Source of the DNA: Nitrosomonas stercoris
GTDB taxonomy: Bacteria > Pseudomonadota > Gammaproteobacteria > Burkholderiales > Nitrosomonadaceae
Assembly: GCA_006742785.1 (NCBI GenBank)
Contig: AP019755.1
Coordinates: forward strand, 372,001-436,000
Length of the DNA: 64,000 nt
Reading direction: 5' to 3'
This document shows positions 22,338 to 64,000 of the stretch, piece after piece (positions within the stretch are counted from its first letter, which is position 1; each line of letters starts with the position of its first letter). The position numbers were made by a program, and so were the translations under genes. The notes under the pieces are model-generated. The model was not told where the DNA came from. It worked only from the letters and a program-made list of their open reading frames with translations, and made no database searches.

Positions 22338-23181
22338 GAACCTGTTCAAAATCTTTTTTTTGGTAGATACTCTCTGGATGAGAAAATACTATCCTAGCGA
22401 CATTAGTCGAGAACAATTTGAGCAGGTTCGCCTGTTGTTGGAGGGTGCGAGGAAGAAGACACGTCCGCGCACCGTGGATCTGTACGAGGTGTTTTGTGCG
22501 GTGCTATATTTGCTCAAGAGTGGCTGCCAGTGGCGTCTGTTGCCGGACAGTTTTCCGAAGTGGCGCACAGTGCACTCGTACTGGGCCATCTGGAGTGAGC
22601 CAGATGCGGAGGGAGTGAGCCTGCTGGAGCGGGCGTTAAAAAAAATCCGTTGGCGCGGTTCGTACCAGACAGGGGCGCAGCGCTTGCAGCACGTTCTTGA
22701 TCGTGGACGCGCAGAGCGTGAAAAACACGGACACGGCGGGCCAGAAGGGTTATGACGCTGGCAAGAAGATCTCTGGTATCAAGCGTCACATCGCAGTTGA
22801 TACCCAGGGCTTGCCGCATGCCATTGCGGTGACGACGGCAGAAGTGACTGACCGCAAAGGGGCGTTGCAAGCCCTGGAGCACTGCAGACCAAGCTTGGGA
22901 AAAGTACAAAGTCTGCTGTGCGATAGCGGCTATACCGGAGAACCATTTGCTGAAGGCGTGCGAGAAATTCTAGGAAAACTGGTTACGGTGCAGATTGCCA
23001 AGCGCAGTGAATTGCATACCTTCGCCGTTATCCCCAAGCGTTGGGTGGTGGAGCGCAGCTTTGCCTGGCTGGAGAAGAATCGACGGTTGTGGAAAAACTG
23101 CGAGCGTAAACTCAATACCAGCTTGCAATTCATTCAGCTGGCATTCCTGGCTCTTTTGCTTAAAAGATTTTGAACAGGCTC
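22338..23181 (+). mobile_element. IS-A copy 1 (IS5-type, 844 bp)
   Basis: Ends GAACCTGTTCAAAATC and GATTTTGAACAGGCTC form terminal inverted repeats, flanked by TAA on both sides (22335-22337, 23182-23184) as a 3-bp TNA target duplication. It carries a transposase in two overlapping frames. The same element occurs at 51529-52372 and 60995-61838, all 844 bp and nearly identical, so movement was recent. IS-B begins immediately after the right-hand TAA. Confidence 0.93.
22378..23173 (+). CDS. IS-A transposase, made by frameshift
   Basis: The first frame (22378-22755, from MRKYYPSDISREQF) encodes the N-terminal DUF4096-like region (TVDLYEVFCAVLYLLKSG; QWRLLPDSFPKW). The catalytic DDE frame runs on to 23173 (FLIVDAQSVKNTDTA; GYDAGKK; GIKRHIAVDTQGLPHAI; LLCDSGYTG; VVERSFAWL). 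The second frame is +1 relative to the first and opens right after TTAA at an A8 run (22638-22645), so the full protein needs a +1/-2 slip there, by the ribosome or by RNA polymerase on the A-tract. This layout is usual in some IS5 subgroups. The length of about 264 aa fits the family. Confidence 0.88.
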
Positions 23182-23184
23182 TAA

Positions 23185-24004
23185 GAGCCCGTTTACGATC
23201 TCATCATTATTCCTTACGATACGTGGATGAAGAGAACAAAATATGCCAGTGATATTAGCAAAGAGAAGTTTGCCGAGATAGAGCCGCTATTGCGTAGCGT
23301 GAGGCGCAGCACCAAACCCACGACAATAGATTTGTATGAAGTATTTTGTGCTGTGCTGTATCTGCTGCGTACTGGTTGCCAGTGGAGATTTTTGCCCGGA
23401 GAGTTTCCCAAATGGCAGAGTGTATATGCCTATTGGCGCAAATGGAATGAGCCTGACCAGCACGGCGTGAGCGTGCTGGAGCAGGCATTAAAAAAATCAG
23501 GTTGGCGCGGCCCGAGAGAAACTGGGGCGCAACGCTTGCAGCACGTTCTTGATTGTGGACGCGCAAAGCGTGAAGAATACAGACACGGCTGACCAGAAAG
23601 GCTATGACGCCGGCAAGAAGGTGTCGGGCATCAAGCGCCATATCGCTGTTGATACCTTGGGGTTGCCGCACGCCATTGCAGTGACGACAGCGGAAGTGAC
23701 TGACCGTAACGGTGCATTGCAGGCCTTGAAGCGTTGCAGAGTGTGACGGTGGCTATACTGGAGCACCATTTGCCGAAAGTGTGCAAGAAATTCTGGGCAA
23801 ACCTGTCACCGTGCAGATCGCCAAACGCAGCAAACTGCATACCTTCAAGGTTATGCCCAGGCGCTGGATAGTGGAACGTAGTTTCGCCTGGCTGGAAAAG
23901 TGCCGAAGATTATGGAAAAACTGCGAACGTAAACTTGATACCAGCTTGCAGCTCATTCATTTGGCTTTCTTGGCACTATTACTCAGAAGATCGTAAACAG
24001 GCTC
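23185..24004 (+). mobile_element. IS-B copy 1 (820 bp, defective)
   Basis: Ends GAGCCCGTTTACGATC and GATCGTAAACAGGCTC are terminal inverted repeats flanked by TAA (23182-23184 and 24005-24007). The left TAA is shared with IS-A copy 1, so one element inserted into the target duplication of the other. Compared with the 849-bp copy at 61842-62690, 29 bp are missing after GCGTTGCAGA (near 23742), which shifts the catalytic frame. Confidence 0.9.
23227..23996 (+). pseudogene. IS-B transposase, inactivated by 29-bp deletion
   Basis: The N-terminal frame (23227-23592: MKRTKYASDISKEKFAEIEP; TIDLYEVFCAVLYLLRTG) is intact and meets the catalytic frame at an A7 run (23490-23496), as in IS-A. The catalytic frame (IVDAQSVKNTDTADQKGYDA) stops near 23746 because of the 29-bp deletion, while its C-terminal part (QEILGKPVTVQIAKRSKLHT; IVERSFAWLEK) continues in another frame. 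The DDE triad cannot be made on one polypeptide. Confidence 0.88.
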
Positions 24005-36370: not shown

Positions 36371-36443
36371 ATACACTGCGACAATATGTCGCATTGCAAC
36401 CGCCAACAAGCTGCTCTAAAATCTCTCTTACAATGATGAAGAG

Positions 36444-36463
36444 ATTGATAATCGTTATCGATT
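36444..36463 (+). promoter_or_regulatory. Fur-like box upstream of tonB
   Basis: ATTGATAATCGTTATCGATT is a near-perfect inverted repeat (TGATAA/TTATCG arms) like a Fur operator, about 120 bp before the tonB start. Iron control of the tonB-exbBD operon is the expected consequence. Confidence 0.65.
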
Positions 36464-49405: not shown

Positions 49406-50584
49406 TTAAACTACTACCACATCCGGCAACGGGAAGCCATTGAAATTGCTCGCATATGATGTTGTATACGCACCCGCATTAGGAATAAAGATAAAATCAT
49501 CTTCCTGTATATCTTCCGGCAGCATTTCATCGTGCATCAGTACATCAACAGAATCACAAGTCGGGCCAGCAATGGACCAGGGAACTGGTGATCCTGTACG
49601 CTGCGTCAAGATTTCATAACGCAACCCTTCGCTTACTTCGATAATGCCACCGAAAATACCCGCATCCCAATACATCCAGCGTTTGCCATTGCGCACCGCT
49701 GTTCCAACAACACGACATACAAAACAGGCTGAATCAGACACCAGATAACGCCCTGGTTCCGCCATAATGCGTATGGTTTCTGGCAAATCTGCTATGGCTT
49801 CGTTGATGACTTCAGCAATAATTTCAATCGCAGGAATCGGTTTAACATAACGTACTGGATAACCCCCACCCAGATTCAGCAAGCGTGGGTTGAGCCCTGC
49901 TTCGCGCATGCTGGCAAATACTGTTTTGGCACGTTCAATTCCTACCCGCCAATTTTGTGGATTACGACACTGGGAACCCACATGAAAAGTCACACCAGCT
50001 AAATCTGCATGCAACTTCACTGCTTCATCAATAATTTCACGTACATCCACCAAATGCGTGCCAAATTTGCCAGCCAATGGCCAATCACTGCCAATATTAG
50101 GGGTATCAACGCGCAAATACAATTTGGCATCTGGCTTGATACTGACAATCTTACGCAGTTCTTCCATACTATCGATCACATACCATTCCACCCCTTTTTC
50201 GGCGGCATACTGAATATATGCACGTGATTTCATCGGGTTACTGTAAAAAATCTCGACAGCTGGCACACCCAAGCTCATCAAAAGATCAAGCTCTGCAATT
50301 GAAGCGATTTCAAACCCGACACCTTCCTCAATCAAGGTTTTCAATACGCGTGGATCAGGATTGGCTTTTGCAGCGTAATGCGGATGTACGCGCGGCATCG
50401 CTGCTTTAAAACGGCGCGCTTTATTGCGCACAATAGCAGTATCCAGCATCAAGAAAGGATGCTGGTAACCTTCTTGTGCTAATTTAGCTTTTACCAGGGA
50501 AAGATCGATACTGACTTCAGGATGCGTATCGAAAATGATGTTTTCTGTTTGCTGTTGTACAGCTGCGGTGGACAGTTTTTTCAT
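49406..50584 (-). CDS. PLP-dependent ornithine/lysine decarboxylase (fold type III)
   Basis: 392 aa from the ATG at 50584 with GGAGG 7 nt upstream. Group IV decarboxylase signatures: HYAAKANPDPRVLKTL (PLP Lys about residue 73), GVTFHVGSQC, NLGGGYPVRY, EPGRYLVSDSACFV and the active-site Cys in GPTCDSVDVL. These fit eukaryotic-type ornithine decarboxylases and bacterial lysine/ornithine decarboxylases that make putrescine or cadaverine. Substrate choice between ornithine and lysine cannot be read with confidence. It is a single gene, convergent with frmB. Confidence 0.92.
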   Translation of the reverse strand: MKKLSTAAVQQQTENIIFDTHPEVSIDLSLVKAKLAQEGYQHPFLMLDTAIVRNKARRFKAAMPRVHPHYAAKANPDPRVLKTLIEEGVGFEIASIAELDLLMSLGVPAVEIFYSNPMKSRAYIQYAAEKGVEWYVIDSMEELRKIVSIKPDAKLYLRVDTPNIGSDWPLAGKFGTHLVDVREIIDEAVKLHADLAGVTFHVGSQCRNPQNWRVGIERAKTVFASMREAGLNPRLLNLGGGYPVRYVKPIPAIEIIAEVINEAIADLPETIRIMAEPGRYLVSDSACFVCRVVGTAVRNGKRWMYWDAGIFGGIIEVSEGLRYEILTQRTGSPVPWSIAGPTCDSVDVLMHDEMLPEDIQEDDFIFIPNAGAYTTSYASNFNGFPLPDVVVV

Positions 50585-51157
50585 GAAGGTTCCTCCAGGG
50601 ATCGCTACGTTTCGGGAATATGAATTTGAATCCAATCAGTTGAAACAAACAGGTTTACCTTACTTCTCATGATGACCTCTTTTATGCGCTGTTCGCTACC
50701 GGTATTTCCAAAGGCACGCATTATAGACCTGATTTTTCTAGAATCAAGTCTTTTTTTGCATTAATTTTATTTAAAAAATACTTAAAAATCATTGCGTTAC
50801 AAAATTAAACTTATTTAATTGCTCTTATTATTTTTTACTTGAAAGACTTGTAGCTCAACAAGCAATCATTCAAGTCACAATCCTCAACAAAAGAATCAGG
50901 CAAATCCATTTTATGATGTTAATTTATTAACTCATTTGGCCCGTTGGACAAAAAATACCAAATAATATTCCTTTTAAATTCCTATGAACCTATCCAAAAA
51001 AGATCAGCAGATAAAAACGTGCAGGATTACCATATCGTCATTTATCTGGAAACCAACCATCAAAAATGTACTCTACGTAAATAGTTGCACTCAATTGATT
51101 CATTCAATGCAAAAACCAGCACAAATACTTACAACCAGCTGAAAGGAAATGACGAAA
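50585..51157 (+). other. 573-bp AT-rich intergenic region
   Basis: No gene is supported here. The region holds the decarboxylase promoter on the minus strand, a plus-strand terminator-like hairpin at 50726-50757 and the PepSY gene leader. The part 50760-51090 is very AT-rich without repeats I can define. Confidence 0.4.
50726..50757 (+). terminator. Terminator-like hairpin with no upstream gene on its strand
   Basis: GACCTGATT and AATCAAGTC (one mismatch) form a 9-bp stem with a short loop, followed by seven T on the plus strand. The only nearby plus-strand gene, frmB, ends 1.4 kb earlier. It could end an antisense or small RNA across the decarboxylase region, or be chance. Confidence 0.4.
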
Positions 51158-51427
51158 ATGAACAAGATCACAGCAGCAGTTACTTTTGCCAGTATTATGC
51201 TTTTTCCATTCAATCATGCCTTTGCCAGCAACGAAGCATTACCGGCCAGCCAGGTGATTGCAGCCATTCAAACTGCTGTTGCAGCTTATCCTGGCAACAT
51301 TAAGGAAGCTGAAGTAGAAAGAAAACAGGGAAACTTGATCGTCGAGATAAAAATTATTGATACCAATGGTCAAAAGATCAAAGTAAAGGTAGACCCAACA
51401 AACAACACTCTTCTGCCAGTCAACTAA
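51158..51427 (+). CDS. PepSY-domain periplasmic protein
   Basis: 89 aa from the ATG at 51158; AAAGGAA lies 9 nt upstream, whereas an ATG three codons earlier is too close to it. Signal peptide ending AFAS, then a single PepSY-like domain (SQVIAAIQTAVAAYPGNIKE; AEVERKQGNLIVEIKIIDTN; KIKVKVDPTNNTLLPV). Such one-domain secreted proteins are often regulators or inhibitors of periplasmic enzymes, without a defined reaction. It stands alone, 101 bp before IS-A copy 2. Confidence 0.82.
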   Translation: MNKITAAVTFASIMLFPFNHAFASNEALPASQVIAAIQTAVAAYPGNIKEAEVERKQGNLIVEIKIIDTNGQKIKVKVDPTNNTLLPVN

Positions 51428-51528
51428 CTACCACCTAATTAATATACCAAGCAAAAATGCTCCGGATTATTTTGTTGCAGTTACGTTACACCACAATTGC
51501 AATCAAAGTAATCTGGTATATCTTCTTA

Positions 51529-52372
51529 GAGCCTGTTCAAAATCTTTTAAGCAAAAGAGCCAGGAATGCCAGCTGAATGAATTGCAAGCTGGTATTGAGT
51601 TTACGCTCGCAGTTTTTCCACAACCGTCGATTCTTCTCCAGCCAGGCAAAGCTGCGCTCCACCACCCAACGCTTGGGGATAACGGCGAAGGTATGCAATT
51701 CACTGCGCTTGGCAATCTGCACCGTAACCAGTTTTCCTAGAATTTCTCGCACGCCTTCAGCAAATGGTTCTCCGGTATAGCCGCTATCGCACAGCAGACT
51801 TTGTACTTTTCCCAAGCTTGGTCTGCAGTGCTCCAGGGCTTGCAACGCCCCTTTGCGGTCAGTCACTTCTGCCGTCGTCACCGCAATGGCATGCGGCAAG
51901 CCCTGGGTATCAACTGCGATGTGACGCTTGATACCAGAGATCTTCTTGCCAGCGTCATAACCCTTCTGGCCCGCCGTGTCCGTGTTTTTCACGCTCTGCG
52001 CGTCCACGATCAAGAACGTGCTGCAAGCGCTGCGCCCCTGTCTGGTACGAACCGCGCCAACGGATTTTTTTTAACGCCCGCTCCAGCAGGCTCACTCCCT
52101 CCGCATCTGGCTCACTCCAGATGGCCCAGTACGAGTGCACTGTGCGCCACTTCGGAAAACTGTCCGGCAACAGACGCCACTGGCAGCCACTCTTGAGCAA
52201 ATATAGCACCGCACAAAACACCTCGTACAGATCCACGGTGCGCGGACGTGTCTTCTTCCTCGCACCCTCCAACAACAGGCGAACCTGCTCAAATTGTTCT
52301 CGACTAATGTCGCTAGGATAGTATTTTCTCATCCAGAGAGTATCTACCAAAAAAAAGATTTTGAACAGGCTC
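51529..52372 (-). mobile_element. IS-A copy 2 (844 bp)
   Basis: Same length and terminal repeats as copy 1 (GAGCCTGTTCAAAATC at the left edge), flanked by TTA on both sides (51526-51528, 52373-52375), a clean 3-bp TNA target duplication. It has inserted between the PepSY gene and the acyltransferase upstream region. Both transposase frames look intact. Confidence 0.94.
51537..52332 (-). CDS. IS-A transposase, made by frameshift (copy 2)
   Basis: The N-terminal frame runs 52332-51955 and the DDE frame ends at 51537, joined through the same A8 run as in copy 1. Motifs VDAQSVKNTDTA, LLCDSGYTG and VVERSFAWL are present. The protein appears identical to copy 1. Confidence 0.88.
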
Positions 52373-52375
52373 TTA

Positions 52376-52750
52376 TCAAGAAGAAAGCATAATCCGATCG
52401 ATCCGATCAAGTTTCACAGCAACCGCACCATGTTATTTTTAACTGACGTAGCAATCCGACAACCCCAGTATTGCGCACCTTACCCGCTTGTATATTACGA
52501 TCAATAGCATTCTTACCTATTTGTAATAATGATTCTCATTTTCATGTCTCTCAAAAGAGACAAATAATTTGCTTATAAAACAATTACTTATGATTATTCA
52601 TTATTTTTATGTGGATTATAACGACAATTTCTTATTTTCTTCATAGCAACAGTGATTACAAGTAGTTGATTTACCATCATTTTTTATGATGGCATGGATT
52701 GTGCTACGTATAAAGGCAATTAGCTATTTTGTCTTCAAGGAGCACAATTC
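52376..52750 (+). other. Upstream region of the acyltransferase gene
   Basis: This 375-bp stretch holds a Fur-like box and AT-rich sequence. No gene is supported. An AAGGAG ribosome site lies just before the ATG at 52751. Confidence 0.4.
52525..52544 (+). promoter_or_regulatory. Fur-like box upstream of the FeeM-like gene
   Basis: AATAATGATTCTCATTTTCA matches Fur-type hexamers (AATGATTCTCATT core, as at 6199). It is about 207 bp before the acyltransferase start, so control of that gene is possible but the distance is large. Confidence 0.45.
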
Positions 52751-53638
52751 ATGCATATTGCACATCGATCGACACCAACAAATACTGCAAAGAATATTCA
52801 CCTCTCACATATCACCCTCAACCCTTCCTATCCTGATTCACTCGCATTTAATCTCAGCCGAACATACTCAACCCCGCACCAGCAAACACAACCGACTCCC
52901 CCTACACACCCCCCACTGAATTGCCTGCTACAACGAAATGGCTACAGCATCCACCTAGTTAACTCACTCAAGCAACGCATCAAAGCCACCACACTCATCA
53001 AACGCATGTACGCCTCGCGCGGCTACCAAACTAATAATGCCTGCGCTTTTACAAACTCCTCCAATCAGTACACTTTTGAAGCACGCCAATCACAACAGCT
53101 CATTGGCACCATGACCCTCACCATCGACACCCATAACAAACTGCTTGCTGACACGCTCTATCAAACAGAACTGAATCAGTTTCGCCAGCGTAATCGTCGA
53201 TTATGTGAACTTTCCAAACTGGCATTCGACTCGGAAAGCAGCTCAAAAGAGATTTTTGCCTCTCTGTTTCATATTGCTTACATTTTTGCCCGTAACATTC
53301 ACAACGTTGACGACGCTTTCATAGAAATTAACCCTCGCCACGCCGCATTCTACAAACGCATGCTTGGTTTCCAGCAAATAGGAGAACTACGCACCTGCCC
53401 GCGCGTCAATGCTCCAGCCGTGTTACTACAATTGAATCTGGAATACATGAAGCAACAAATCATCACTCAAGCAGGACAACTTAATCAAAATACAAGAAGC
53501 ATTTACCCGCAATTTCTTTCTCAGAATCAAGAAAAAGAAATTACTCAACGCATCCAAACTAAATATACGACTACTACTTTCTTCCCCTCTTATCAATCTA
53601 CACCTGACTATCGTCAAAACCACTACCAACCCGCATAA
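52751..53638 (+). CDS. FeeM-like N-acyltransferase (N-acyl amino acid synthase type)
   Basis: A 295-aa protein with a low-complexity Thr/Pro/Gln-rich first 55 residues, then a GNAT-like acyltransferase core: LIKRMYASRGYQTNN, QQLIGTMTLTIDTHNKLLAD, LYQTELNQFRQRNRRLCELS, KLAFD and DAFIEINPRHAAFYKRMLGF. This order (RMYxxRGY, LxADxLYxxELxxFR, EINPRHxxFY) is that of FeeM and of PEP-CTERM/exosortase-associated acyltransferases, relatives of acyl-homoserine-lactone synthases. It would join an acyl-ACP fatty chain to an amino acid or amine. AAGGAG lies 9 nt before the ATG. A desaturase, PEP-CTERM protein and ThiF/nitroreductase pair lie 3-8 kb downstream. The product is unknown. Confidence 0.78.
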   Translation: MHIAHRSTPTNTAKNIHLSHITLNPSYPDSLAFNLSRTYSTPHQQTQPTPPTHPPLNCLLQRNGYSIHLVNSLKQRIKATTLIKRMYASRGYQTNNACAFTNSSNQYTFEARQSQQLIGTMTLTIDTHNKLLADTLYQTELNQFRQRNRRLCELSKLAFDSESSSKEIFASLFHIAYIFARNIHNVDDAFIEINPRHAAFYKRMLGFQQIGELRTCPRVNAPAVLLQLNLEYMKQQIITQAGQLNQNTRSIYPQFLSQNQEKEITQRIQTKYTTTTFFPSYQSTPDYRQNHYQPA

Positions 53639-53980
53639 AGACAAAACCTAAAAGATAACACGCCTTGTTTTAAAGCATCTCTGGTTACCGGTGCAAAAGA
53701 ACAAGATAGATGGCTTGCAAAAGTTATTCAGAACTTGCTCAAGCCATCTACCAAAGGAGGCCACACAAGACAAAATTGAACGAAAAAGCGGAACATACTT
53801 TTTCATATGTATCCCAAGCGCAATTTTAACGCCGCAATGCGCCTCTCAACGGGACATTGAGCACAAGCTATAAGAACTAATCACTACATATCAAATCAGA
53901 AATAAGACCAGGATTCCTGCATAACCAACTATTTCTTGAGATTTATGGATACGGTTCAGAGTCATTTCATTGATGATTTA
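53639..53980 (+). other. Gap with no recognisable gene
   Basis: A 60-codon open frame (53691-53873) is present, but its composition, lack of a ribosome site and lack of any family pattern give no support for a gene. The stretch ends at the TTA flank of the MITE. Confidence 0.3.
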
Positions 53981-54112
53981 GGGAGCCTCCGCACAACCTC
54001 GGTCATTGCGAGGAGCGCAGCGACGCGGCAATCCATAAGATGTTGATCTCATTATTAATACAATGAATTACTTCGCTCGCAATAATAAGATTCGAGGTTG
54101 CACAGAGGCTCC
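53981..54112 (+). mobile_element. MITE copy 1 (132 bp)
   Basis: The ends GGAGCCTCCGCACAACCTCG and, inverted, GGAGCCTCTGTGCAACCTCG are long terminal repeats, flanked by TTA on both sides (53978-53980, 54113-54115). The inside carries GTCATTGCGAGGAGCGCAGC and GCGGCAATCCATAAGATG and no coding capacity. The GAGCC terminus and TNA duplication match IS-A and IS-B, so a related transposase may move it. Confidence 0.8.
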
Positions 54113-54172
54113 TTAGGTAAGTAGCAATCTCTGGTATGCTTTAACTGTTTTGAGATTGTATTGAGGATCACT

Positions 54173-54652
54173 ATGGCACTCACAAAAGAAGACATTACCG
54201 AAATCAGGGAGTTGATTGGCGAAGTAATCACCGAACGACAACCAAAGACAATAAACAACAATGTCCACTACGAACTGGAAATCAGGGAAAGAACCCTGCG
54301 AGTGGAAGAAGGATTAAAACATCAGCGCGAACTGATGCAGGAAGGCTTCAAACGCATGGATCAGCGTTTCGAGCAAATGGAAAAACGCTTCGAGCAGATC
54401 GATAAGCGGTTTGAACAGGTTGATAAACGCTTTGAATCGCTGATAGCTGAAATGAATGCACGTTTTGAGCAGATCGACAGGCGTTTCGAACAAGTTGATA
54501 AACGTTTTGAGTAGATGGACAAACGCTTTGAACAAGCCGATAAGCGTTTTGAATCGTTAACCAGACGTATCGATCGCTTCATGATCTGGTCATTTGCCAC
54601 CACACTGACTGTTGGCGGTATTGTCGTGGCTGCCATTAAATATCTGCCCTGA
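54173..54652 (+). pseudogene. Heptad-repeat coiled-coil membrane protein split by an amber codon
   Basis: From the ATG at 54173 (GAGG upstream): MALTKEDITEIRELIGEVIT, then a 7-residue repeat of the form RFEQMEK-RFEQIDK-RFEQVDK. A TAG at 54512-54514 interrupts it in frame; the repeat then continues (MDKRFEQADKRFESLTRRID) to a C-terminal membrane helix (WSFATTLTVGGIVVAAIKYL) and a TGA at 54652. The TAG lies exactly where the pattern FEQ-MDK predicts CAG, so one C-to-T change explains it. The full 159-aa protein would be a membrane-anchored parallel coiled coil of unknown role. It precedes the mntA-hepT pair by 12 bp. Confidence 0.8.
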
Positions 54653-54664
54653 ATCACAACTATC

Positions 54665-55099
54665 ATGCAATCACAATCCAACGACGATTCATCGCTTGCG
54701 CAGCAGTTGACCGCCCTGTTGTCACGTTATCCTCTAATCAAACTAGCAATCTTATTTGGCTCGCAAGCAGATCCAACCCGCAAAAAACACTTTGGCAGCG
54801 ATATTGACCTAGCAATCATGACTACCGAGCCAGTCAGCAGCCACTTTAAAATGGAGCTCACACAAACTATCAGCACTGAGCTGGATCGTCCGGTAGACAT
54901 CGTCGTTATCAATGATGCACCCGAGCCGATACTGGGAGAAGTGCTCAAAGGCCAACGCCTGCTCGGTGATCACAATACCTACGCCCAGCTGCTTACCCGC
55001 CACCTGCTGAATGTGGCTGATTTTCTCCCACTGCGACAACGCATATTGAAGGAAAGGCGCGACCGATGGATGCAAGATGGATACAACCGTACTAACTGA
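54665..55099 (+). CDS. mntA: MntA-type nucleotidyltransferase antitoxin
   Basis: A 144-aa minimal nucleotidyltransferase with GSQ (32-34) and SDIDLAI (45-51), the GS-x10-DxD metal/nucleotide motif of MntA antitoxins, and a third Asp in VDIVVINDAP. In studied pairs MntA adds AMP to a Tyr of the HepT toxin and so silences it. It overlaps hepT by 23 nt. Confidence 0.88.
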   Translation: MQSQSNDDSSLAQQLTALLSRYPLIKLAILFGSQADPTRKKHFGSDIDLAIMTTEPVSSHFKMELTQTISTELDRPVDIVVINDAPEPILGEVLKGQRLLGDHNTYAQLLTRHLLNVADFLPLRQRILKERRDRWMQDGYNRTN

Positions 55100-55493
55100 A
55101 AAGCTGGAATCACTCAGACGTTGCGTACAACGTATTGAAGAAAAGCAGCCACGCCATATTGACGAGCTGAAACAAAACATTGATCTGCAAGATATCCTGG
55201 TGCTTAATCTCACACGCGCCATACAACTGTGCGTTGATATCGGCAGCCATCTTCTCAGCCAAACCAATTGCCCGGCACCGCGAACAATGGGTAACGTATT
55301 TACCCTGCTGCAAGAAGCAAACATTATTTCACCAACCACCAGCCAGCAACTAAAAAAGGCGGTCGGTTTCAGAAACATCGCGATACACCAGTATGAAGCA
55401 ATCAACTGGGAAATCGTCTACGTAGTCAGCCAACACGCCCCTCAGGATTTCCGCCAATTCGCCCAAGAGATCAGCCATTACGCTAAGCTATAA
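55077..55493 (+). CDS. hepT: HepT-type HEPN ribonuclease toxin
   Basis: A 138-aa all-helical HEPN protein (DUF86) with the active-site R99-NIAI-H104-Q-Y106, the RxxxxH-x-Y motif in which Tyr is the AMPylation target. The start at 55077 lies inside mntA. Together they are a type VII toxin-antitoxin module by family knowledge. Both genes look intact. Confidence 0.88.
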   Translation: MDTTVLTEKLESLRRCVQRIEEKQPRHIDELKQNIDLQDILVLNLTRAIQLCVDIGSHLLSQTNCPAPRTMGNVFTLLQEANIISPTTSQQLKKAVGFRNIAIHQYEAINWEIVYVVSQHAPQDFRQFAQEISHYAKL

Positions 55494-55567
55494 TTTCCAG
55501 CTCTGGAAACATACCGACCAAAATTTTCGTATTTTGTCTTATCTTTACAAATGGCATTGTCGGCTTC

Positions 55568-56671
55568 ACGATGACAGTGAAAAAAACGTCTTTGCGAAAC
55601 GACGTAGTCGGTGAAGCAATCCAGTGCAATCGCTACAACAAAGAAAATCGGTAATTTTTTGCGTATTCAGTTGCCACATCACTGGATCGCCGCAGCCTTG
55701 TGGCTTCGCGATGACGGCGCCATTTTGTCAATTCTTCCAGATAACCACATCGCGCTGTTCCTCGCGAAAGCGGCGTCTTTGCGAAATGACGTAGTCGGTG
55801 AAGCAATCCAGCGCAATCGCTACAACAAAGAAAATCGGGAATTTTTTGCGTATTCAGTTACCACATCACTGGATCGCCGCAGCCCCTTGGAGGCTTCGCG
55901 ATGACGGCGCCATTTTGTCAATTCTTCCAGATAGCCACGTCGCGCTGCTCCTCGCGAAAGCGGCGTCTTTGCGAAATGACGTAGTCGGTGAAGCAATCCA
56001 GCGCAATCGCTACAACAAAGAAAATCGGGAATTTTTTGCGTATTCAGTTGCCACATCACAGGATCGCCACAACCCTTGGAGGCTTCGCGATGACAGTGCC
56101 TCTTTGTCAATTCTTCCAGATAACCACGTCGCGCTGCTCCTCGCGAAAGCGGCGTCTTTGCGAAATGACGTAGTCGGTGAAGCAATCCAGCGCAATCGCT
56201 ACAACAAAGAAAATCGGGAATTTTTTGCGTATTCAGTTACCACATCACTGGATCGCCGCAGCCCCTTGGAGGCTTCGCGATGACGGCGCCATTTTGTCAA
56301 TTCTTCCAGATAGCCACGTCGCGCTGCTCCTCGCGAAAGCGGCGTCTTTGCGAAATGACGTAGTCGGTGAAGCAATCCAGCGCAATCGCTACAACAAAGA
56401 AAATCGGGAATTTTTTGCGTATTCAGTTGCCACATCACAGGATCGCCACAACCCTTGGAGGCTTCGCGATGACAGTGCCTCTTTGTCAATTCTTCCAGAT
56501 AACCACGTCGCGCTGCTCCTCGCGAAAGCGGCGTCTTTGCGAAATGACGTAGTCGGTGAAGCAATCCAGTGCAATCGCTGCAACAAAGAAAATCGGTAAT
56601 TTTTTGCGCATTCAGTTTCCACTACCACCGGATCACCACGTTGCGTTGTTCCCTGCGAAAGCAACGGTAAA
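55568..56671 (+). repeat. Tandem array of ~189-bp units with a duplicated 379-bp dimer
   Basis: Units sharing GCGAAATGACGTAGTCGGTG and AAGCAATCCAGCGCAATCGC start near 55611, 55798, 55988, 56177, 56367 and 56556, spacing 187-190 bp. The blocks 55798-56176 and 56177-56555 appear identical, so a 379-bp dimer was duplicated whole. Outer units (first and last) are more diverged. Open frames of 60-160 codons on both strands run through the units, but they reflect repeat composition and are not genes. The unit resembles the inner part of the MITE (TCATTGCGAGG...GGCAATCC). Confidence 0.9.
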
Positions 56672-56803
56672 AGCACAAGAAATGCTTATGACAAATCTTT
56701 CAAAGCACCTTAATTCTCAATTAATTCACGGTTATGCCGCTGCATAAACAGGGGAAAACACTTTTCTCTGTTTATCTAATATGTGAATCAAACGAGGTGC
56801 TTT

Positions 56804-57790
56804 ATGAATCAGTCACGTACGCTTCCACCTGCTTTGACAGGGGATCACAGTCATTTATCTGCACAGGCACGCCAAGAGATTCGAGCGCTCAGCGGTGCGC
56901 AGCCAAAAGCATTTTTTATACAAGCATTAGGCGCATGGATTGTTATTATCGCTACGATTGCGTTAGCTATTCACGTCAACAATATCTGGATGACATTGCT
57001 GGCCCTACCAATTATTGCCACTCGTTTTAATATTTTGGGATTGTTAGTACATGAGCAAGTACACCAGCTTGGTTTGCGGGGGCGGTACGGAGATATTATC
57101 GCTAATATTCTGACAGCCTACCCTATAGGAATTACAGTAGAAGATTACGCCAAAGTCCATTTATCCCACCACAAGCATTATTTCACTGAAGATGATCCAG
57201 ATTTTTTGCGCAAAGCTGGGCCAGATTGGACATTTCCCATGCCAACTCTGCATTTGATTAAGCTATTATTAAGTGATTTGTGTGGCGTAAGTTTTTACAA
57301 GATTATAAAGGGCAAGCGCCTGGAAAATAAACAGGTTTACAAACGACTGCACCTCACACCGAAATGGCTGCGGCCTACTTTTTACATTGGGTTGTCTATT
57401 CTGTTGACCTATTTTGAACTGTGGCCTGTATTTCTGGTGTATTGGCTACTACCGCTCATGACATTTATGCCGCTGATTGTGCGTCTGGGTGCGATTTGCG
57501 AACATGTGTATAACCTGCCTCACGCTGGAATTATCGAGTCCTCCCCACTTATTATTCTACGTTGGTGGGAAAAACTGTTACTACCCAACCTCAACTTCGC
57601 AATGCACGCCTACCACCACTTCTTCCCGGGAGTGGCCTGGTGCAATCTACCCAAAGTACACAAAATATTTGAACGTGAGAACATGGTGAATAAAACAGCA
57701 GTTTTTTATGGCTATTGGGATTATTTTGCATTCTTGCAAAGACAAGATAAAAATTTACACACCATCAAACAACCTGTTCACTTACAGTAA
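56804..57790 (+). CDS. Membrane fatty-acid desaturase
   Basis: 328 aa from the ATG at 56804 (GAGGTG upstream; an earlier in-frame ATG has no such site). Membrane di-iron desaturase with three histidine boxes: HEQVH (83-87), HLSHH (119-123) and HAYHH (269-273), plus hydrophobic segments at about 42-75 and 195-230. It introduces a double bond (or hydroxyl) in an acyl chain at the inner membrane. It may act in general lipid remodelling or supply an acyl group for the FeeM-like enzyme 3 kb upstream. A bidirectional terminator follows. Confidence 0.88.
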   Translation: MNQSRTLPPALTGDHSHLSAQARQEIRALSGAQPKAFFIQALGAWIVIIATIALAIHVNNIWMTLLALPIIATRFNILGLLVHEQVHQLGLRGRYGDIIANILTAYPIGITVEDYAKVHLSHHKHYFTEDDPDFLRKAGPDWTFPMPTLHLIKLLLSDLCGVSFYKIIKGKRLENKQVYKRLHLTPKWLRPTFYIGLSILLTYFELWPVFLVYWLLPLMTFMPLIVRLGAICEHVYNLPHAGIIESSPLIILRWWEKLLLPNLNFAMHAYHHFFPGVAWCNLPKVHKIFERENMVNKTAVFYGYWDYFAFLQRQDKNLHTIKQPVHLQ

Positions 57791-57822
57791 AAAATAGTTT
57801 ATCTCAGTTTTTATGGAATCGT

Positions 57823-57851
57823 AAAAAAGCTCCGTGTTACGGAGCTTTTTT
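57823..57851. terminator. Bidirectional rho-independent terminator
   Basis: AAAAAAGCTCCGTG, TTA, CGGAGCTTTTTT: a GC-rich 6-bp stem with A and T tracts on both sides. It sits between the convergent desaturase and PEP-CTERM genes and can serve both. Confidence 0.88.
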
Positions 57852-57868
57852 ACAGTAGAAATAATAAT

Positions 57869-58693
57869 TTAATTTTTTCTACGTGCCACAGCACCCATTC
57901 CTAAAATACCCAGAGCCAACAAAGCCAATGTCGCAGGTTCTGGAATTTCACTGCTCGATCTTAACGCGTCAATCTTGCCCTGTTGTGTCACAACAATTTG
58001 AGAGCAGAGTCCACCTACTCCAAAGGTGTCACATGCAGCCGGAGCAGAAGCTGGAGTAAAAATCTGGTTAGTAGTATCTATAGCAAAAAACACATTACCT
58101 GGTAGAAGATTTCCGCCATCTTTATCTTGAAAAAGGGAATCATCTGATACTGATGTCAATGCAAATAGCAAGTTTGAAGTACCACTTATATTTACTCCAC
58201 CATGAAAATTACCCAGTGAACCACCCGATGGAGCCGCAGGAGCAAACGTAGCAAGTACATTAGAATCGCCCACTATATTCAATTCAGCCGTACCTACACC
58301 AGCATCAAATACATACTCAACCGCACCAGTCGTCAAGTCATAACTCGTAACCGTACCAGTCAAACCACTGAAATTATATTCAATCGTAATCGGCAAAGGA
58401 TCAGGCGCTCCAAAATCACACCCACCTACACAGCTTTCAGGTGTATAGGTTATCGAGTACAGCCCACCGAAATTATTAAATTTTGATCCAACTTCAATCT
58501 CTCCAGCTGCATTCAACTGCTGAGTTACAGTAGTCAGACCACCTGACACAACCAAATGACCAATATTACTTACACCTGCGTAGCCCGGAAGATTCAGTTG
58601 CCAAGCATCCAGAACTTCAGCCTGAACTGGTGCGCTCATTATTGCTGCTGAACCTACCAGAGTTGCTACTGCTGCTAATTTCTTAAATTCCAT
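57869..58693 (-). CDS. PEP-CTERM exported surface protein
   Basis: 274 aa from the ATG at 58693, 4 nt after GGAGGT; further ATGs lie just upstream. Signal peptide ending VQAE, a Gly/Thr/Ser-rich beta-type middle with one Cys pair (CVGGC) and the C-terminal sorting signal IPEPATLALLALGILGMG followed by ARRKN: PEP motif, hydrophobic helix, basic tail. Such proteins are cut by an exosortase and placed on the surface or in an exopolysaccharide matrix. No exosortase is in the window. Confidence 0.92.
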   Translation of the reverse strand: MEFKKLAAVATLVGSAAIMSAPVQAEVLDAWQLNLPGYAGVSNIGHLVVSGGLTTVTQQLNAAGEIEVGSKFNNFGGLYSITYTPESCVGGCDFGAPDPLPITIEYNFSGLTGTVTSYDLTTGAVEYVFDAGVGTAELNIVGDSNVLATFAPAAPSGGSLGNFHGGVNISGTSNLLFALTSVSDDSLFQDKDGGNLLPGNVFFAIDTTNQIFTPASAPAACDTFGVGGLCSQIVVTQQGKIDALRSSSEIPEPATLALLALGILGMGAVARRKN

Positions 58694-58843
58694 CATTACC
58701 TCCATATATACTAATTCTTAGGGACATCCCTATCTTTTAATAAAGCACGATACGTGCCAATATATTTATATTTTTATTATCAGATACTTACAGATTCTTT
58801 ATATTTAAAATATCAAAAGTGTAAAAAAAATCGACATTCCTGT

Positions 58844-59920
58844 CTATTCAGCGCTCCACATAAGTTTACTTAACGGTAACCGTATGGAACGTGAAGCTGG
58901 TGATGAAGCAGCACCAATACGGCACATAAAAACAGCTTGTTGCGATGCTGTATCTGCCAATGCGTGGAATTTTTCTGCCAGTTCATTTATTTCCTGGTTG
59001 ATCTTCTCCAACTGGGATGGTTGTACTTGCTGAATTGCATACCAATTGAAAATAACCGGGGTCATCTCTGGTTGCAAAAACAGATTATTGGCTGCGCAAG
59101 TTAGCCACACGCGCTGCATCATCATACCAGCCGCAACAAAATCAAGCAGAGTTTGTGGCGTCTTGTTTGCCTGAATCAATAAATGACTCGCACAAAACAT
59201 TGCTGGTAGAAAATCCAGTTGAATACGTGGTGCAATTGTTCCAAACAGATAGCGATTAAAAAAATCGAGACGTTCCCAGCTTTGCATGACCCAACGCATT
59301 AATTGGGCGGTTAATGTATCTACCCCCACAGCACGCTCAGGTATGCGATCTTGGCTGAATGTCGCGCCCCATTCGATGATTTGCTTATGCACTTGGTACG
59401 CCTCCGGGCAGGTTAGGCGAATATGTGCATTTTGCCAAAGCAGGCTGGCTACTTTGCGACGGTCTGACCAAGTTTCAAAAAATTTTACTGTGTATTCTTC
59501 ACCTGCCGCTGCTTGTATTGCTGCGCGTTGAATGGCGGTTAATGGAGTCGTTTTCATTAATCGTCTTTGAACAGTGCGCGTTTTGATAAATGGATAGAGT
59601 GCATCAGATTGCAATGCTGTATTCGGTTCAAATTTCACATCATAAATCGGTGCGGTATCCGGAGTATTTGCCCGATGTTGCCAAGTGGCTTCTAACCCAT
59701 AATGAGTAGCTGCAATACGAATGGTTTCCAGCAAAGCACCATGCGCCATGTGGCTGGCACGCCCCGCAAAATCATACAAACACCAGTCACGCGTATCATA
59801 GCCATGCACTGCTATATGCTTATGGTTAATAATCTCAAAACGCCAAGGTTGCGTATTATCCCCGCTGGGCGCCCAACGCGCTGTATCGAGAATTTCCAAT
59901 AACACATCATGATCAGACAT
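58844..59920 (-). CDS. Nitroreductase-family protein paired with ThiF
   Basis: 358 aa from the ATG at 59920 with GGGAGGTG 5 nt upstream. N-terminal TARWAPSGDNTQPWRFEI is the FMN-binding opening of the nitroreductase fold; LLIQANKTPQTLLDFVAAGM and MQRVWLTCAANNLFLQP form the second half. It is longer than simple nitroreductases and fits the C-terminal domain of Rv1355c-like proteins, where ThiF and nitroreductase domains are fused. It overlaps the ThiF gene by 8 nt. The reaction is unknown; a flavin-dependent step on an activated acyl or peptide group is an inference. Confidence 0.82.
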   Translation of the reverse strand: MSDHDVLLEILDTARWAPSGDNTQPWRFEIINHKHIAVHGYDTRDWCLYDFAGRASHMAHGALLETIRIAATHYGLEATWQHRANTPDTAPIYDVKFEPNTALQSDALYPFIKTRTVQRRLMKTTPLTAIQRAAIQAAAGEEYTVKFFETWSDRRKVASLLWQNAHIRLTCPEAYQVHKQIIEWGATFSQDRIPERAVGVDTLTAQLMRWVMQSWERLDFFNRYLFGTIAPRIQLDFLPAMFCASHLLIQANKTPQTLLDFVAAGMMMQRVWLTCAANNLFLQPEMTPVIFNWYAIQQVQPSQLEKINQEINELAEKFHALADTASQQAVFMCRIGAASSPASRSIRLPLSKLMWSAE

Positions 59921-60797
59921 TATCACCTCCCGCAAATTGCATGCGCGCAAACATCCTGCGTGCTATTCCAAGGCCAATCTGCTGGAGAGGATTGCGATTT
60001 CCTCCTGGCCGCCAAGTTTTTACAAATTTATTTTTATAGGCATCAAAATGATAACCATGCGGTGCAGCAGCCACCTCTCCCCTTCCAAGTAAAATTTTTA
60101 ACGCTTCAGTTGCTGCCAGACCACAACAAAGCTGACATGCCATAACAGTAGAAGGGCCTCTATGCTGCAGAAAATTAACTTGTGATGGATCTACCAAATA
60201 GCCATTCTGCAGCATAGCTGGCGATAAGCCTAGCAGAAAACGAATCAGCATTTCCTGCTCAGTATGCCCTTCCAAACAAAAATATTGTTCGAAAGACATT
60301 TTGTTCGGCAAAAAAATTAATACAGCTGCACCCATACCTAAAGGAGCAGCTGTAACAGCAGGAATTCCCAACCGATGACAAGCAGCAAAAACAGCTCTAC
60401 GAGCAGATAACGCAAAGAAATCTAGTCCATCAATATATAAATCTACGCCTTGCAAAAAATTGTTCAGATTTACTTCGTTTACACCATCCGGAAATTGTGT
60501 GATTTTCAGAGCTGGATTGATGTCACACGCCATGTCAGTCAGTACTTGCACTTTAGGTTCGCCCAAAGAAGATGCCATTGCGCCTGCTTGGCGATTAAAA
60601 TTGGCAAGCTCAAACGTATCAAAATCAGCTATGTTAAAAGCGCCAATTCCCAGTCTAGCTAATGTCAAAAGATGTCCGCCCCCAACCCCTCCCATTCCAG
60701 CAATTGCAATACGTTTGTTACATAATAACGATTGCTCAGCCTCTGTGACCCAACCTATGTTGCGTGAAAATGCGGTTTTATAATCAAATTTGTTCAT
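59913..60797 (-). CDS. ThiF/E1-like adenylyltransferase
   Basis: About 294 aa from an ATG at 60797 (others lie 6 and 18 nt upstream). E1-like fold: RIAIAGMGGVGGGHLLTLAR (ATP-binding GxGGxG at about 35-40), FDTFELANFNRQ (the D-x-D/E-x-x-N-x-x-R-Q adenylation motif), DLYIDGLDFFALSARRAVFA and PAVTAAPLGMGAAV. Only one CxxC-like pair (CQLCC) is seen, so a full zinc site is doubtful and no clear catalytic Cys is evident. It should activate a carboxylate as acyl-AMP. It overlaps a nitroreductase gene, a pair fused in some bacteria. No ubiquitin-like partner is seen. Confidence 0.85.
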   Translation of the reverse strand: MNKFDYKTAFSRNIGWVTEAEQSLLCNKRIAIAGMGGVGGGHLLTLARLGIGAFNIADFDTFELANFNRQAGAMASSLGEPKVQVLTDMACDINPALKITQFPDGVNEVNLNNFLQGVDLYIDGLDFFALSARRAVFAACHRLGIPAVTAAPLGMGAAVLIFLPNKMSFEQYFCLEGHTEQEMLIRFLLGLSPAMLQNGYLVDPSQVNFLQHRGPSTVMACQLCCGLAATEALKILLGRGEVAAAPHGYHFDAYKNKFVKTWRPGGNRNPLQQIGLGIARRMFARMQFAGGDNV

Positions 60798-60851
60798 TTT
60801 CATCCAGTCTATCAAATGTTAAGCAGCAACTTTAACTGTCTATTTCATTTA

Positions 60852-60991
60852 GAGCACCTCTGCACAACTTCGTCATTGCGAAAAGTGCAGCGCCACAGCA
60901 ACCCATAAGATGTTGATTTCATTGATGCAGTGAATTATTTCCCACCTGCGGCGATCGTTAATGACGAGATTCGAGGCTAATCAGAGATTTC
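60852..60991 (+). mobile_element. MITE copy 2 (140 bp, diverged)
   Basis: GAGCACCTCTGCACAACTTC GTCATTGCG (two parts) at the left and the inverted CGAGGCTAATCAGAGATTTC at the right match MITE copy 1, as does the inner CCATAAGATGTTGAT. TTA flanks both ends (60849-60851, 60992-60994). IS-A copy 3 has used the right-hand TTA as its target. Confidence 0.72.
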
Positions 60992-60994
60992 TTA

Positions 60995-61838
60995 GAGCCT
61001 GTTCAAAATCTTTTAAGCAAAAGAGCCAGGAATGCCAGCTGAATGAATTGCAAGCTGGTATTGAGTTTACGCTCGCAGTTTTTCCACAACCGTCGATTCT
61101 TCTCCAGCCAGGCAAAGCTGCGCTCCACCACCCAACGCTTGGGGATAACGGCGAAGGTATGCAATTCACTGCGCTTGGCAATCTGCACCGTAACCAGTTT
61201 TCCTAGAATTTCTCGCACGCCTTCAGCAAATGGTTCTCCGGTATAGCCGCTATCGCACAGCAGACTTTGTACTTTTCCCAAGCTTGGTCTGCAGTGCTCC
61301 AGGGCTTGCAACGCCCCTTTGCGGTCAGTCACTTCTGCCGTCGTCACCGCAATGGCATGCGGCAAGCCCTGGGTATCAACTGCGATGTGACGCTTGATAC
61401 CAGAGATCTTCTTGCCAGCGTCATAACCCTTCTGGCCCGCCGTGTCCGTGTTTTTCACGCTCTGCGCGTCCACGATCAAGAACGTGCTGCAAGCGCTGCG
61501 CCCCTGTCTGGTACGAACCGCGCCAACGGATTTTTTTTAACGCCCGCTCCAGCAGGCTCACTCCCTCCGCATCTGGCTCACTCCAGATGGCCCAGTACGA
61601 GTGCACTGTGCGCCACTTCGGAAAACTGTCCGGCAACAGACGCCACTGGCAGCCACTCTTGAGCAAATATAGCACCGCACAAAACACCTCGTACAGATCC
61701 ACGGTGCGCGGACGTGTCTTCTTCCTCGCACCCTCCAACAACAGGCGAACCTGCTCAAATTGTTCTCGACTAATGTCGCTAGGATAGTATTTTCTCATCC
61801 AGAGAGTATCTACCAAAAAAAAGATTTTGAACAGGTTC
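60995..61838 (-). mobile_element. IS-A copy 3 (844 bp)
   Basis: Same length and gene content as the other copies. The left flank is TTA (shared with the MITE) and the right flank is TAA, joined directly to IS-B copy 2, so its own target duplication does not match. The 5' end has the GAACCTG variant seen in copy 1, whereas copy 2 has GAGCCTG. Confidence 0.92.
61003..61798 (-). CDS. IS-A transposase, made by frameshift (copy 3)
   Basis: Two frames (61798-61421 and 61479-61003) meet at the A8 run; protein motifs are the same as in copy 1. It appears intact. Confidence 0.87.
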
Positions 61839-62817: not shown

Positions 62818-64000
62818 ATGTCACGATTCAAAATAGCTCTTCGCAATGTAATCCGCCACAAACGACGCAGCGGTCTTGCAATTGGAGCAACGGCTTTTGG
62901 CATCGTAGCCTTACTTTTGGCAAGCGGTTTTATTGAATGGATCTATCAGGATATGCGAGAATCAACCATCCACTCGCAACTGGGGCATATGCAAATTGTC
63001 AAGCATGGTTATTTTGAAGCTGGCAAGGCAGATCCTTACCGATTCTTGTTTGTAGACAATTTGAGACAAAAATTGTCGGAAAATTTTACACTCCCAGATA
63101 ACAGCCATCCTGTTAAAACAGTAGTACCGCGTTTGGGATTCAGTGGCTTGCTCAGCTATGGCGATGCCACGCTGTCTTTTATGGGGGAAGGGATCGATCC
63201 GGCAGAACAGGAATATTTTGGTAATGCGCTCAAGCTTTCAGCTGGCGACCATTTATCAGCCGAGCAGCCGCATCACTTGATTATGGGCGAAGGGCTGGCG
63301 CGCAATCTAGGTGTGGCGGTGGGTGATCAGGTGGTGTTGCTGGTGAACACAGCAACGGGTGGAATCAACGCAGTTGAAATGACGGTGGGTGGGCTGTTTA
63401 CAACCGTGACAAAATCTTACGACGATAACGCACTGCGCCTGCCAATTAGTACTACACAGCAGTTGCTGCGGACCCAAGGCGCGCACAGCTGGGTAGTGTT
63501 GCTGCATGATACTGCGCAAACTGATGCAGTATTGGCAGCGCTACGCGAGCAGCTATCGCCAGAGCAGTTTGAAATTGTGCCTTGGTATCAATTGGCTGAT
63601 TTCTACAATAAAACCACGGTGTTATTTTCTAAACAGGTGCAAGCTATCAAGCTGATTATCGCACTTATTATCTTGTTAGGCATTTCCAACACCATGACCA
63701 TGAATGTGATGGAGCGTACTGGCGAAATCGGTACCGCCATGGCATTAGGTGTAAAGAAAATCGACATTTTGCGTCAATTCCTGTGTGAAGGCGCACTGAT
63801 TGGCGGTATCGGTGGCATATTGGGTATGCTAATCGGATTACTACTTGCCACCATCATTTCTGCTGTTGGCATCCCCATGCCGCCTCCACCAGGCATGGCA
63901 CGTGGTTATACTGGAGAAATCCTCATTACCCCCGACATGCTGCTAGAAGCACTGGCATTGGCGATTATCACCACTCTCATCGCCAGCCTCTACCCTGCTT
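62818..64000 (+). CDS. ABC transporter permease, FtsX/MacB-LolC type (partial)
   Basis: 394 residues are visible and the frame runs off the right edge. N-terminus MSRFKIALRNVIRHKRRSGL, first helix (LAIGATAFGIVALLLASGFI), a MacB-like periplasmic domain (GHMQIVKHGYFEAGKADPYR; HHLIMGEGLARNLGVAVGDQ) and the FtsX domain (IIALIILLGISNTMTMNVME; RTGEIGTAMALGVKK). The ATPase would be a separate protein, as in LolD-type systems. The ATG at 62820 lies 127 bp after IS-B. Function could be lipoprotein release or export of a lipid-like product. Confidence 0.88.
   Translation, partial: MSRFKIALRNVIRHKRRSGLAIGATAFGIVALLLASGFIEWIYQDMRESTIHSQLGHMQIVKHGYFEAGKADPYRFLFVDNLRQKLSENFTLPDNSHPVKTVVPRLGFSGLLSYGDATLSFMGEGIDPAEQEYFGNALKLSAGDHLSAEQPHHLIMGEGLARNLGVAVGDQVVLLVNTATGGINAVEMTVGGLFTTVTKSYDDNALRLPISTTQQLLRTQGAHSWVVLLHDTAQTDAVLAALREQLSPEQFEIVPWYQLADFYNKTTVLFSKQVQAIKLIIALIILLGISNTMTMNVMERTGEIGTAMALGVKKIDILRQFLCEGALIGGIGGILGMLIGLLLATIISAVGIPMPPPPGMARGYTGEILITPDMLLEALALAIITTLIASLYPA

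Follow-up and report, generated by a model that had tools for sequence, protein, structure and literature searches.

The closest described relatives of the locus reported here are bacterial gene clusters for acyl-oxazolones and for dehydro N-acyl amino acids. The tyzABC genes of Mycobacterium tuberculosis lead to acyl-tyrazolones by acylation of Tyr/Phe, ATP-dependent cyclisation by a ThiF-type enzyme and O2-dependent desaturation by a nitroreductase-family oxidase (PMC10404671), and the same type of chemistry is described for OxzAB of Pseudoalteromonas rubra (de Rond et al. 2021, as cited in PMC10404671). The trzAS genes encode the same enzyme types and work with Trp (PMC12856293). These three enzyme genes are common to the producers of stieleriacine, kyonggic and thalassotalic acids (PMC12479983), and the cluster of Stieleria maiorica holds synthases, an oxidoreductase, putative transporters, a PEP-CTERM gene and a putative fatty acid desaturase whose supposed substrate is the acyl chain (PMC7293339). 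Here we describe a five-gene block at 52751-60797 of a 64,000-nucleotide stretch of the Nitrosomonas stercoris genome (contig AP019755.1; the whole stretch is called the window), which we regard as a new member of this kind because it has the same enzyme set as the tyz, trz, stieleriacine and kyonggic acid clusters.

The first gene of the block (52751-53638, plus strand) encodes a FeeM-like N-acyltransferase, with a PF21926 match of E 3.7e-55 (186.5 bits against a cut-off of 27) and a match to the solved FeeM 2g0b of E 7e-15 over residues 74-239, so that the N-acyl amino acid synthase of the oxz, tyz and trz clusters has its counterpart here. On the minus strand lie the gene of a ThiF/E1-like adenylating enzyme (59913-60797; PF00899 E 1.6e-42, 145.7 bits; NCBIfam PRK08223 447 bits against a cut-off of 266), which we propose as the cyclase in the role of TyzB, and that of a nitroreductase (NTR)-superfamily protein (58844-59920; PF00881 E 3.5e-11), which we propose as a flavin-dependent oxidase (FDO) in the role of TyzC; the two genes overlap by 8 bases. 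The ThiF motifs GxGGVGG, NFNRQ, K82 and D126 were invariant among 10 aligned sequences, and in an alignment to ThiF-family chains of the PDB the same positions fell on GIGGVGS, NTNRQ, K and D of the solved TcdA. These positions we take to be the ATP-binding residues, so the protein has the ThiF/E1-like domain of acyl-oxazolone clusters with its nucleotide-binding residues kept. A molybdopterin, ThiS or TcdA role for ThiF was rejected, because those models score far below PRK08223, and another ThiF-family gene of the same genome (C1:647206) also counts against such a role. A single NCBIfam model, PRK14852 (989 positions), spans all three proteins, with FeeM at 84-229 (43 bits), ThiF at 302-590 (261 bits) and NTR at 614-753 (35 bits), all far under the full-length cut-off of 1337, as is expected for single parts, and PRK14851 and PRK07877 (Rv1355c) each join ThiF and NTR in one model.

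Two further genes complete the block. A membrane fatty-acid-desaturase-like di-iron enzyme (56804-57790, plus strand; PF00487 E 1.4e-32; open reading frame start GTG at 56783) has the His boxes HEQVH, HLSHH and HAYHH, whose histidines are invariant in 9/9 aligned desaturases. It adjoins FeeM in two relatives, G172 and G156 (labels in G and L denote genomes and loci), and was probably the gene directly after FeeM before the insertions described below. A PEP-CTERM exported protein (57869-58705, minus strand; PF07589 E 1e-6) has a homologue near ThiF in G172, G021 and G112. FeeM and the desaturase on the plus strand thus face PEP-CTERM, NTR and ThiF on the minus strand (57869-60797). Further on, a LolC/E-MacB-type ABC permease (62818-64000, plus strand, running beyond the window end), a proposed part of an exporter, is 76% identical to the permease adjoining ThiF in G172. 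By their sequences and shared arrangement, the five genes form one cluster. A preliminary description of the stretch had named FeeM, a three-His-box desaturase, a PEP-CTERM protein and an overlapping ThiF/NTR pair, and the Pfam and NCBIfam matches confirm these as real genes at the places it gave.

Compared with tyzABC and oxzAB, the window shares the N-acyltransferase, the ThiF-type cyclase and the nitroreductase-superfamily oxidase, and it resembles tyz in having three separate genes, of which ThiF and NTR adjoin each other while the acyltransferase is read from the other strand. Unlike tyz and oxz, the neighbourhood adds the desaturase, the PEP-CTERM protein and a LolCDE-like exporter, and its acyltransferase is parted from ThiF/NTR by insertions; the likeness is one of protein families. 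The set of N-acyl amino acid synthase, ThiF and nitroreductase is also that of the stieleriacine (Stieleria maiorica) and kyonggic acid (Massilia kyonggiensis) clusters, and the desaturase and PEP-CTERM gene have counterparts, at family level, in the Stieleria cluster (PMC7293339). Unlike that cluster, the window has one FeeM and not four and belongs to a different phylum. A tyrosine-ring methyltransferase of the stieleriacine type was absent from the ten scanned proteins of 49406-60815, a scan confined to this region of the genome, and kyonggic acid producers need no methyltransferase. Among the papers listed from an open-licence library, judged by titles and abstract openings, there was no report of acyl-oxazolone or dehydrotyrosine lipids in Nitrosomonas.

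We consider it likely that three enzymatic steps encoded at the locus yield an N-acyl aromatic amino acid, the corresponding acyl-oxazolone (azlactone) and/or the alpha,beta-dehydro N-acyl amino acid formed when the oxazolone is hydrolysed. FeeM would acylate an amino acid, most likely tyrosine, at its amino group with a fatty acyl chain; ThiF would adenylate the carboxylate, upon which the amide oxygen would close the oxazolone ring; and the nitroreductase-family flavoprotein would remove two hydrogens from Calpha-Cbeta, using O2. The membrane desaturase would probably introduce unsaturation into the acyl chain, and the product would probably be carried outwards by a LolCDE-like ABC system together with a LolA-like protein; the PEP-CTERM protein would be exported and probably used on the same occasion. 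From the gene content we infer each chemical step, tyrosine as the head, outward transport of the product and the part played by the PEP-CTERM protein. If the pathway is real, acyl-oxazolone or dehydrotyrosine lipids would be extended to ammonia-oxidising bacteria. The preliminary description had guessed at an N-acylated, possibly unsaturated small molecule whose head group ThiF activates and the flavoprotein oxidises or reduces. Taken as an amino-acid head that is oxidised, this agrees with the published TyzABC/OxzAB chemistry and the TrzAS enzyme types; its label of an undescribed pathway had to be given up, because an acyltransferase with ThiF and an FDO-type nitroreductase is a known set (oxzAB, tyzABC, trzAS and the stieleriacine and kyonggic acid clusters).

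The linkage of the three enzymes was analysed in 150 genomes drawn from the order, own genome included, where ThiF was counted above the PRK08223 cut-off. At the curated FeeM cut-off 54/150 genomes had a match, and a line of 90 bits for strong FeeM was chosen after viewing the scores; weaker matches are for the most part confined to the beginning of the model and resemble cross-matches of the exosortase-associated acyltransferase (TIGR03694). ThiF was found in 28/150 genomes, and FeeM of at least 90 bits in 26 of these 28 (not G103 and G049) versus 5 of the 122 without ThiF (G005, G039, G055, G067 and G140), which gives a Fisher p of 6e-22, uncorrected for relatedness. FeeM lay within 10 kb of ThiF in 23/28, own genome included (not in G049, G092, G103, G111 and G128), and directly beside ThiF or ThiF-NTR in many of these loci. 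Among the 27 loci of relatives, 19 had a window-like NTR (at least 150 bits), seven of them as a ThiF-NTR fusion, while four had a weak NTR (25-48 bits) and four none. Adjacency or fusion of the three genes, as in acyl-oxazolone clusters, is seen for the counterpart of the window block in G172, where they stand in one block with the desaturase and PEP-CTERM genes between; in the window itself, insertions have parted FeeM and ThiF by 6.3 kb. A wider set of named loci, the best 80 of 562 confirmed and therefore biased to close ones, was scored by local hidden Markov models (HMMs) for genes fused to ThiF or no more than 6 kb away from it. NTR was found there in 72/80 at 30 bits and in 63 at 150 bits; the other counts were 53 for a FeeM or TIGR03694-like gene, 45 for PEP-CTERM, 23 for the permease, 1 for the desaturase and 0 for a flavoenzyme like p-cresol methylhydroxylase (PCMH). 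The co-occurrence that the preliminary description had asked for was therefore found, and neither outcome it named as refuting came about, as FeeM accompanied ThiF in 26/28 genomes of the order and in 5/6 of the genus.

The genus sample consisted of 85 genomes of the genus, taken to be Nitrosomonas; in draft genomes presence and absence can err. ThiF (E 1e-40) was found in 6/85, FeeM (E 1e-10) in 16/85, the desaturase (E 1e-20) in 10/85, two of them in pieces, and the window PEP-CTERM protein (E 1e-8) in 2/85. Several results from these samples and from the window weigh against the proposed pathway. Eleven of the 16 FeeM genomes of the genus had no such ThiF, so FeeM is not tied to ThiF. In G150, one of the six ThiF genomes, ThiF was just 43% identical and NTR scored 37 bits. 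At a locus of Nitrosospira briensis Nsp8 (L115:9081-20466), ThiF, desaturase, exporter, PEP-CTERM and FeeM stand together, but no NTR was found within 20.9 kb and the desaturase occupies the usual NTR place after ThiF. The desaturase as a universal or general part of the pathway had to be rejected, since it occurred at 1/80 named loci and at 0/27 ThiF loci of the order. The window NTR reached 121.8 bits against the Acg-family model NF047509 (cut-off 199), 120.3 bits against the Rv1355c model (cut-off 476) and E 0.13, a weak match, against the solved Acg 2ymv; it stays below both cut-offs and is a putative member of the FDO family (subgroup FDO-A). In the window FeeM and ThiF are 6.3 kb apart on opposite strands. 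Finally, no oxazolone has been seen so far for stieleriacine, kyonggic and thalassotalic acids (PMC12479983).

This last point bears on a version of the three-step pathway, not its opposite, in which an open-chain N-acyl dehydroamino acid of the kyonggic or stieleriacine kind would be the end product and the oxazolone a passing intermediate. Massilia kyonggiensis, a betaproteobacterium with the three genes, gives dehydro acids (PMC12479983), and the PCMH-like oxidase of related loci could form dehydrotyrosine without ThiF. On the other hand, oxazolones are acid- and methanol-labile (PMC12856293) and may have escaped detection, and ThiF was accompanied by NTR at the genus loci read. An open-chain end product is thus a serious candidate, though we would place it somewhat short of probable.

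The results also bear on a reading in which two separate systems lie side by side, FeeM and the desaturase giving an unsaturated N-acyl amino acid, and ThiF and NTR serving another substrate, perhaps from the TIGR03694 acyltransferase. FeeM-desaturase pairs without ThiF in G156 and G189, FeeM in the 11 ThiF-less genomes of the genus, and 41/80 named loci with a TIGR03694-type local-HMM match and no FeeM within 6 kb of ThiF (one HMM member was checked against TIGR03694) would fit such a division. However, the strong co-occurrence, the many loci of the order with FeeM directly adjoining ThiF and the single model PRK14852 covering all three domains speak against it. The window FeeM gave no TIGR03694 match at E 0.001, and the two TIGR03694 members of the own genome over cut-off are far off, at 1.31 and 1.53 Mb. 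We therefore regard two separate systems as improbable and keep the three-step pathway.

A link between FeeM and PEP-CTERM genes has already been published by Craig et al. 2011, as cited in PMC4897644 and PMC7293339; the pairing of a FeeM gene beside a PEP-CTERM gene is the same here, and the present analysis adds counts, ThiF/NTR and the swap of a finishing cassette. PEP-CTERM motifs were counted in 14 genus genomes (the 16 with FeeM minus G150, G197 and G217, plus G155), which held 103 motifs in about 40 Mb. A motif lay within 5 kb of FeeM in 10/13 FeeM genomes (not in G189, at 9.1 kb, G161 and G200), versus about 0.4 of 13 expected by chance from motif density; the loci share ancestry. Around ThiF, a local tail HMM found 29, 4 and 5 PEP-CTERM genes at 0-3, 3-6 and 6-9 kb in the named loci with full flanks (46/80), and 13, 2 and 1 in the same bins of 16/27 loci of the order. 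The window protein itself has a homologue in just 3/150 order genomes, and such a homologue stands beside ThiF in genus g21, which belongs to another taxonomic family (G021 and G112), with two more copies elsewhere in G021. PepA is a flocculation PEP-CTERM protein of Aquincola, as outlined in PMC9850573. The PEP-CTERM protein beside ThiF/NTR in G154 (L069:12722-13564) is like PepA, with 111.6 bits against the floc_PepA cut-off of 80, whereas the window protein scores 38.3 against the same cut-off. That a PEP-CTERM protein and an exporter accompany the pathway may offer a clue to the reason for the association of N-acyl amino acid synthases with PEP-CTERM genes.

In G156 the place of ThiF-NTR, between the permease and FeeM-desaturase, is occupied by a flavoenzyme (L066:2394-3989) and a different PEP-CTERM protein. 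The top solved structure matched by the flavoenzyme (E 4e-59) is named simply FAD-binding oxidoreductase; other matches include p-cresol methylhydroxylase (E 5e-53) and eugenol/vanillyl-alcohol oxidases (E 3e-40 and 7e-33). The p-cresol methylhydroxylase/vanillyl-alcohol oxidase family acts on para-substituted phenols, so the phenol-oxidase-like cassette of relatives gives a clue to the head group and makes tyrosine likely. The flavoenzyme (E 1e-60) was found in 7/85 genus genomes, six of them with FeeM and the seventh, G155, with the desaturase, and in 0/6 of the genus ThiF genomes; for its co-occurrence with FeeM the hypergeometric p was 1e-4, relatedness ignored. FeeM and flavoenzyme were on one contig in G156, G173 and G215 and on different contigs in G161, G162 and G217, and more distant copies stood beside FeeM in G158, G170 and G182.

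A tree of 52 FeeM proteins, in which the window row has an unusual letter make-up, grouped 16 Nitrosomonadaceae rows (15 of the genus and Nitrosospira) at 96/68, under the star line of the tool, and two genus rows, G200 and G197b, fell elsewhere. Labels for ThiF and flavoenzyme were interspersed, with five changes between labels over the whole tree, still five with G162 and G217 relabelled and four when only same-locus linkage was counted; the flavoenzyme label was not more clustered than shuffled labels (116/500 as low). Two pairings, window-G189 (88/28) and G172-G156 (92/93), were not firmly resolved, and the five-row set holding both labels was starred (100/92). The interspersion suggests that the finishing cassette was exchanged around a retained FeeM, and the PEP-CTERM protein family also differs between loci. 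A reductase, an AMP-binding ligase and a WbuX-like protein were seen beside the desaturase in G189 (L065:10200-14675) and G155 (L067:9779-13875), perhaps a third finishing cassette. Tentatively, the Nitrosomonas locus may be seen as a fixed chassis made up of FeeM, in many cases accompanied by the desaturase, together with a PEP-CTERM protein and the LolCDE/LolA-like exporter, with exchangeable cassettes that would oxidise the head of an N-acyl tyrosine, either ThiF and a flavin oxidase by the oxazolone route or the p-cresol-methylhydroxylase-like flavoenzyme via a quinone methide, with no ThiF and no oxazolone. The PEP-CTERM protein could then be the partner of the lipid at the cell surface, acting alongside it or bound to it, and a possible handle on the exosortase partner. 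Among the papers listed in literature searches there was no report of such an exchange, in which FeeM, PEP-CTERM and exporter are kept and a flavoenzyme stands in place of ThiF/NTR. One paper on an N-acyl amino acid with a vanillyl-alcohol oxidase (PMC11375781) concerns a fungal pathway with no bearing here.

The distance between FeeM and the other genes in the window is explained by comparison with G172, where ThiF, NTR and PEP-CTERM on one strand face desaturase and FeeM on the other without toxin-antitoxin genes, repeats or insertion sequence (IS) copies, so these are probably later insertions. The toxin-antitoxin genes and repeats noted by the preliminary description lie between FeeM and the desaturase: a MntA/HepT type VII pair (54665-55493, plus strand), both over the NCBIfam cut-off, and a tandem array of about six units of ~190 bases (55587-56759), both probably inserted and outside the pathway. 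The pair is absent from this place in G172 and G156, and remnants of it are there in G189. Copies of an IS, 100% identical and absent from the preliminary description, were found at the left flank (51523-52370, minus strand) and between ThiF and the permease (60989-61835, minus strand), with a third identical copy at 22341-23186. An accidental assembly of mobile accessory genes, brought together by IS copies, would fit the identical copies on both sides and the toxin-antitoxin pair and repeats inside, but it is contradicted by G172, in which all five genes keep this arrangement with no insertions, and by the conserved neighbouring permease, and we hold it to be very improbable. For the same reason a composite transposon was not supported. 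A plasmid origin was likewise rejected, as 52751-60815 had no megablast match in a plasmid collection, a method that detects near matches only.

The neighbourhood of ThiF in G172 also includes a pair of related permeases, of which Pfam assigns the nearer, LolC/E-like one to FtsX/MacB_PCD, and genes for a DUF1302 protein, an ABC ATPase, a LolA-like protein and a TIGR03694 acyltransferase. In N. stercoris the first permease (62818) stands where the window ends, and the others (second permease, DUF1302, ATPase, LolA-like and TIGR03694) are found ~0.88 Mb from it, at C1:1.310-1.318 Mb, with 74-85% identity to the G172 counterparts. On the assumption that the G172 order is the older one, a break between the two permeases divided the island, and the half that remained took up IS copies and a toxin-antitoxin pair. 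By sequence comparison, the gene identities, the conserved linkage, the insertions and this split are established. The distant half also contains, between the DUF1302 gene and the second permease, three genes of 404, 110 and 173 amino acids (L188:10781-13881; G000:C1 ~1.3138-1.3169 Mb), of which the first two are presumably a chromate transporter-like and a YnfA-like membrane protein. Between FeeM and the toxin-antitoxin pair, a coiled-coil open reading frame (54161-54514) has repeated RFEQ(V/I)D(K/R) units and an in-frame stop, downstream of which the repeat goes on; proteins resembling it (family F5) were found at five clustered genus loci, own included.

A link of the locus to iron, hinted at by the low-iron expression test that the preliminary description had proposed, proved weak. 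A Fur-box-like sequence (52525-52543) lies 226 bases upstream of FeeM and matches 15/19 positions of the Fur consensus, and ten Markov copies of the window had no site of at least 15. The site was not conserved in relatives: upstream of the 16 FeeM genes found in 15 relatives, no match exceeded 14/19, a value reached once (G189, a different sequence), and the rest had at most 13, so Fur regulation of FeeM was rejected. The best match in the window was 16/19, at 36441-36459, upstream of an open reading frame at 36581 that is TonB-like by its sequence.

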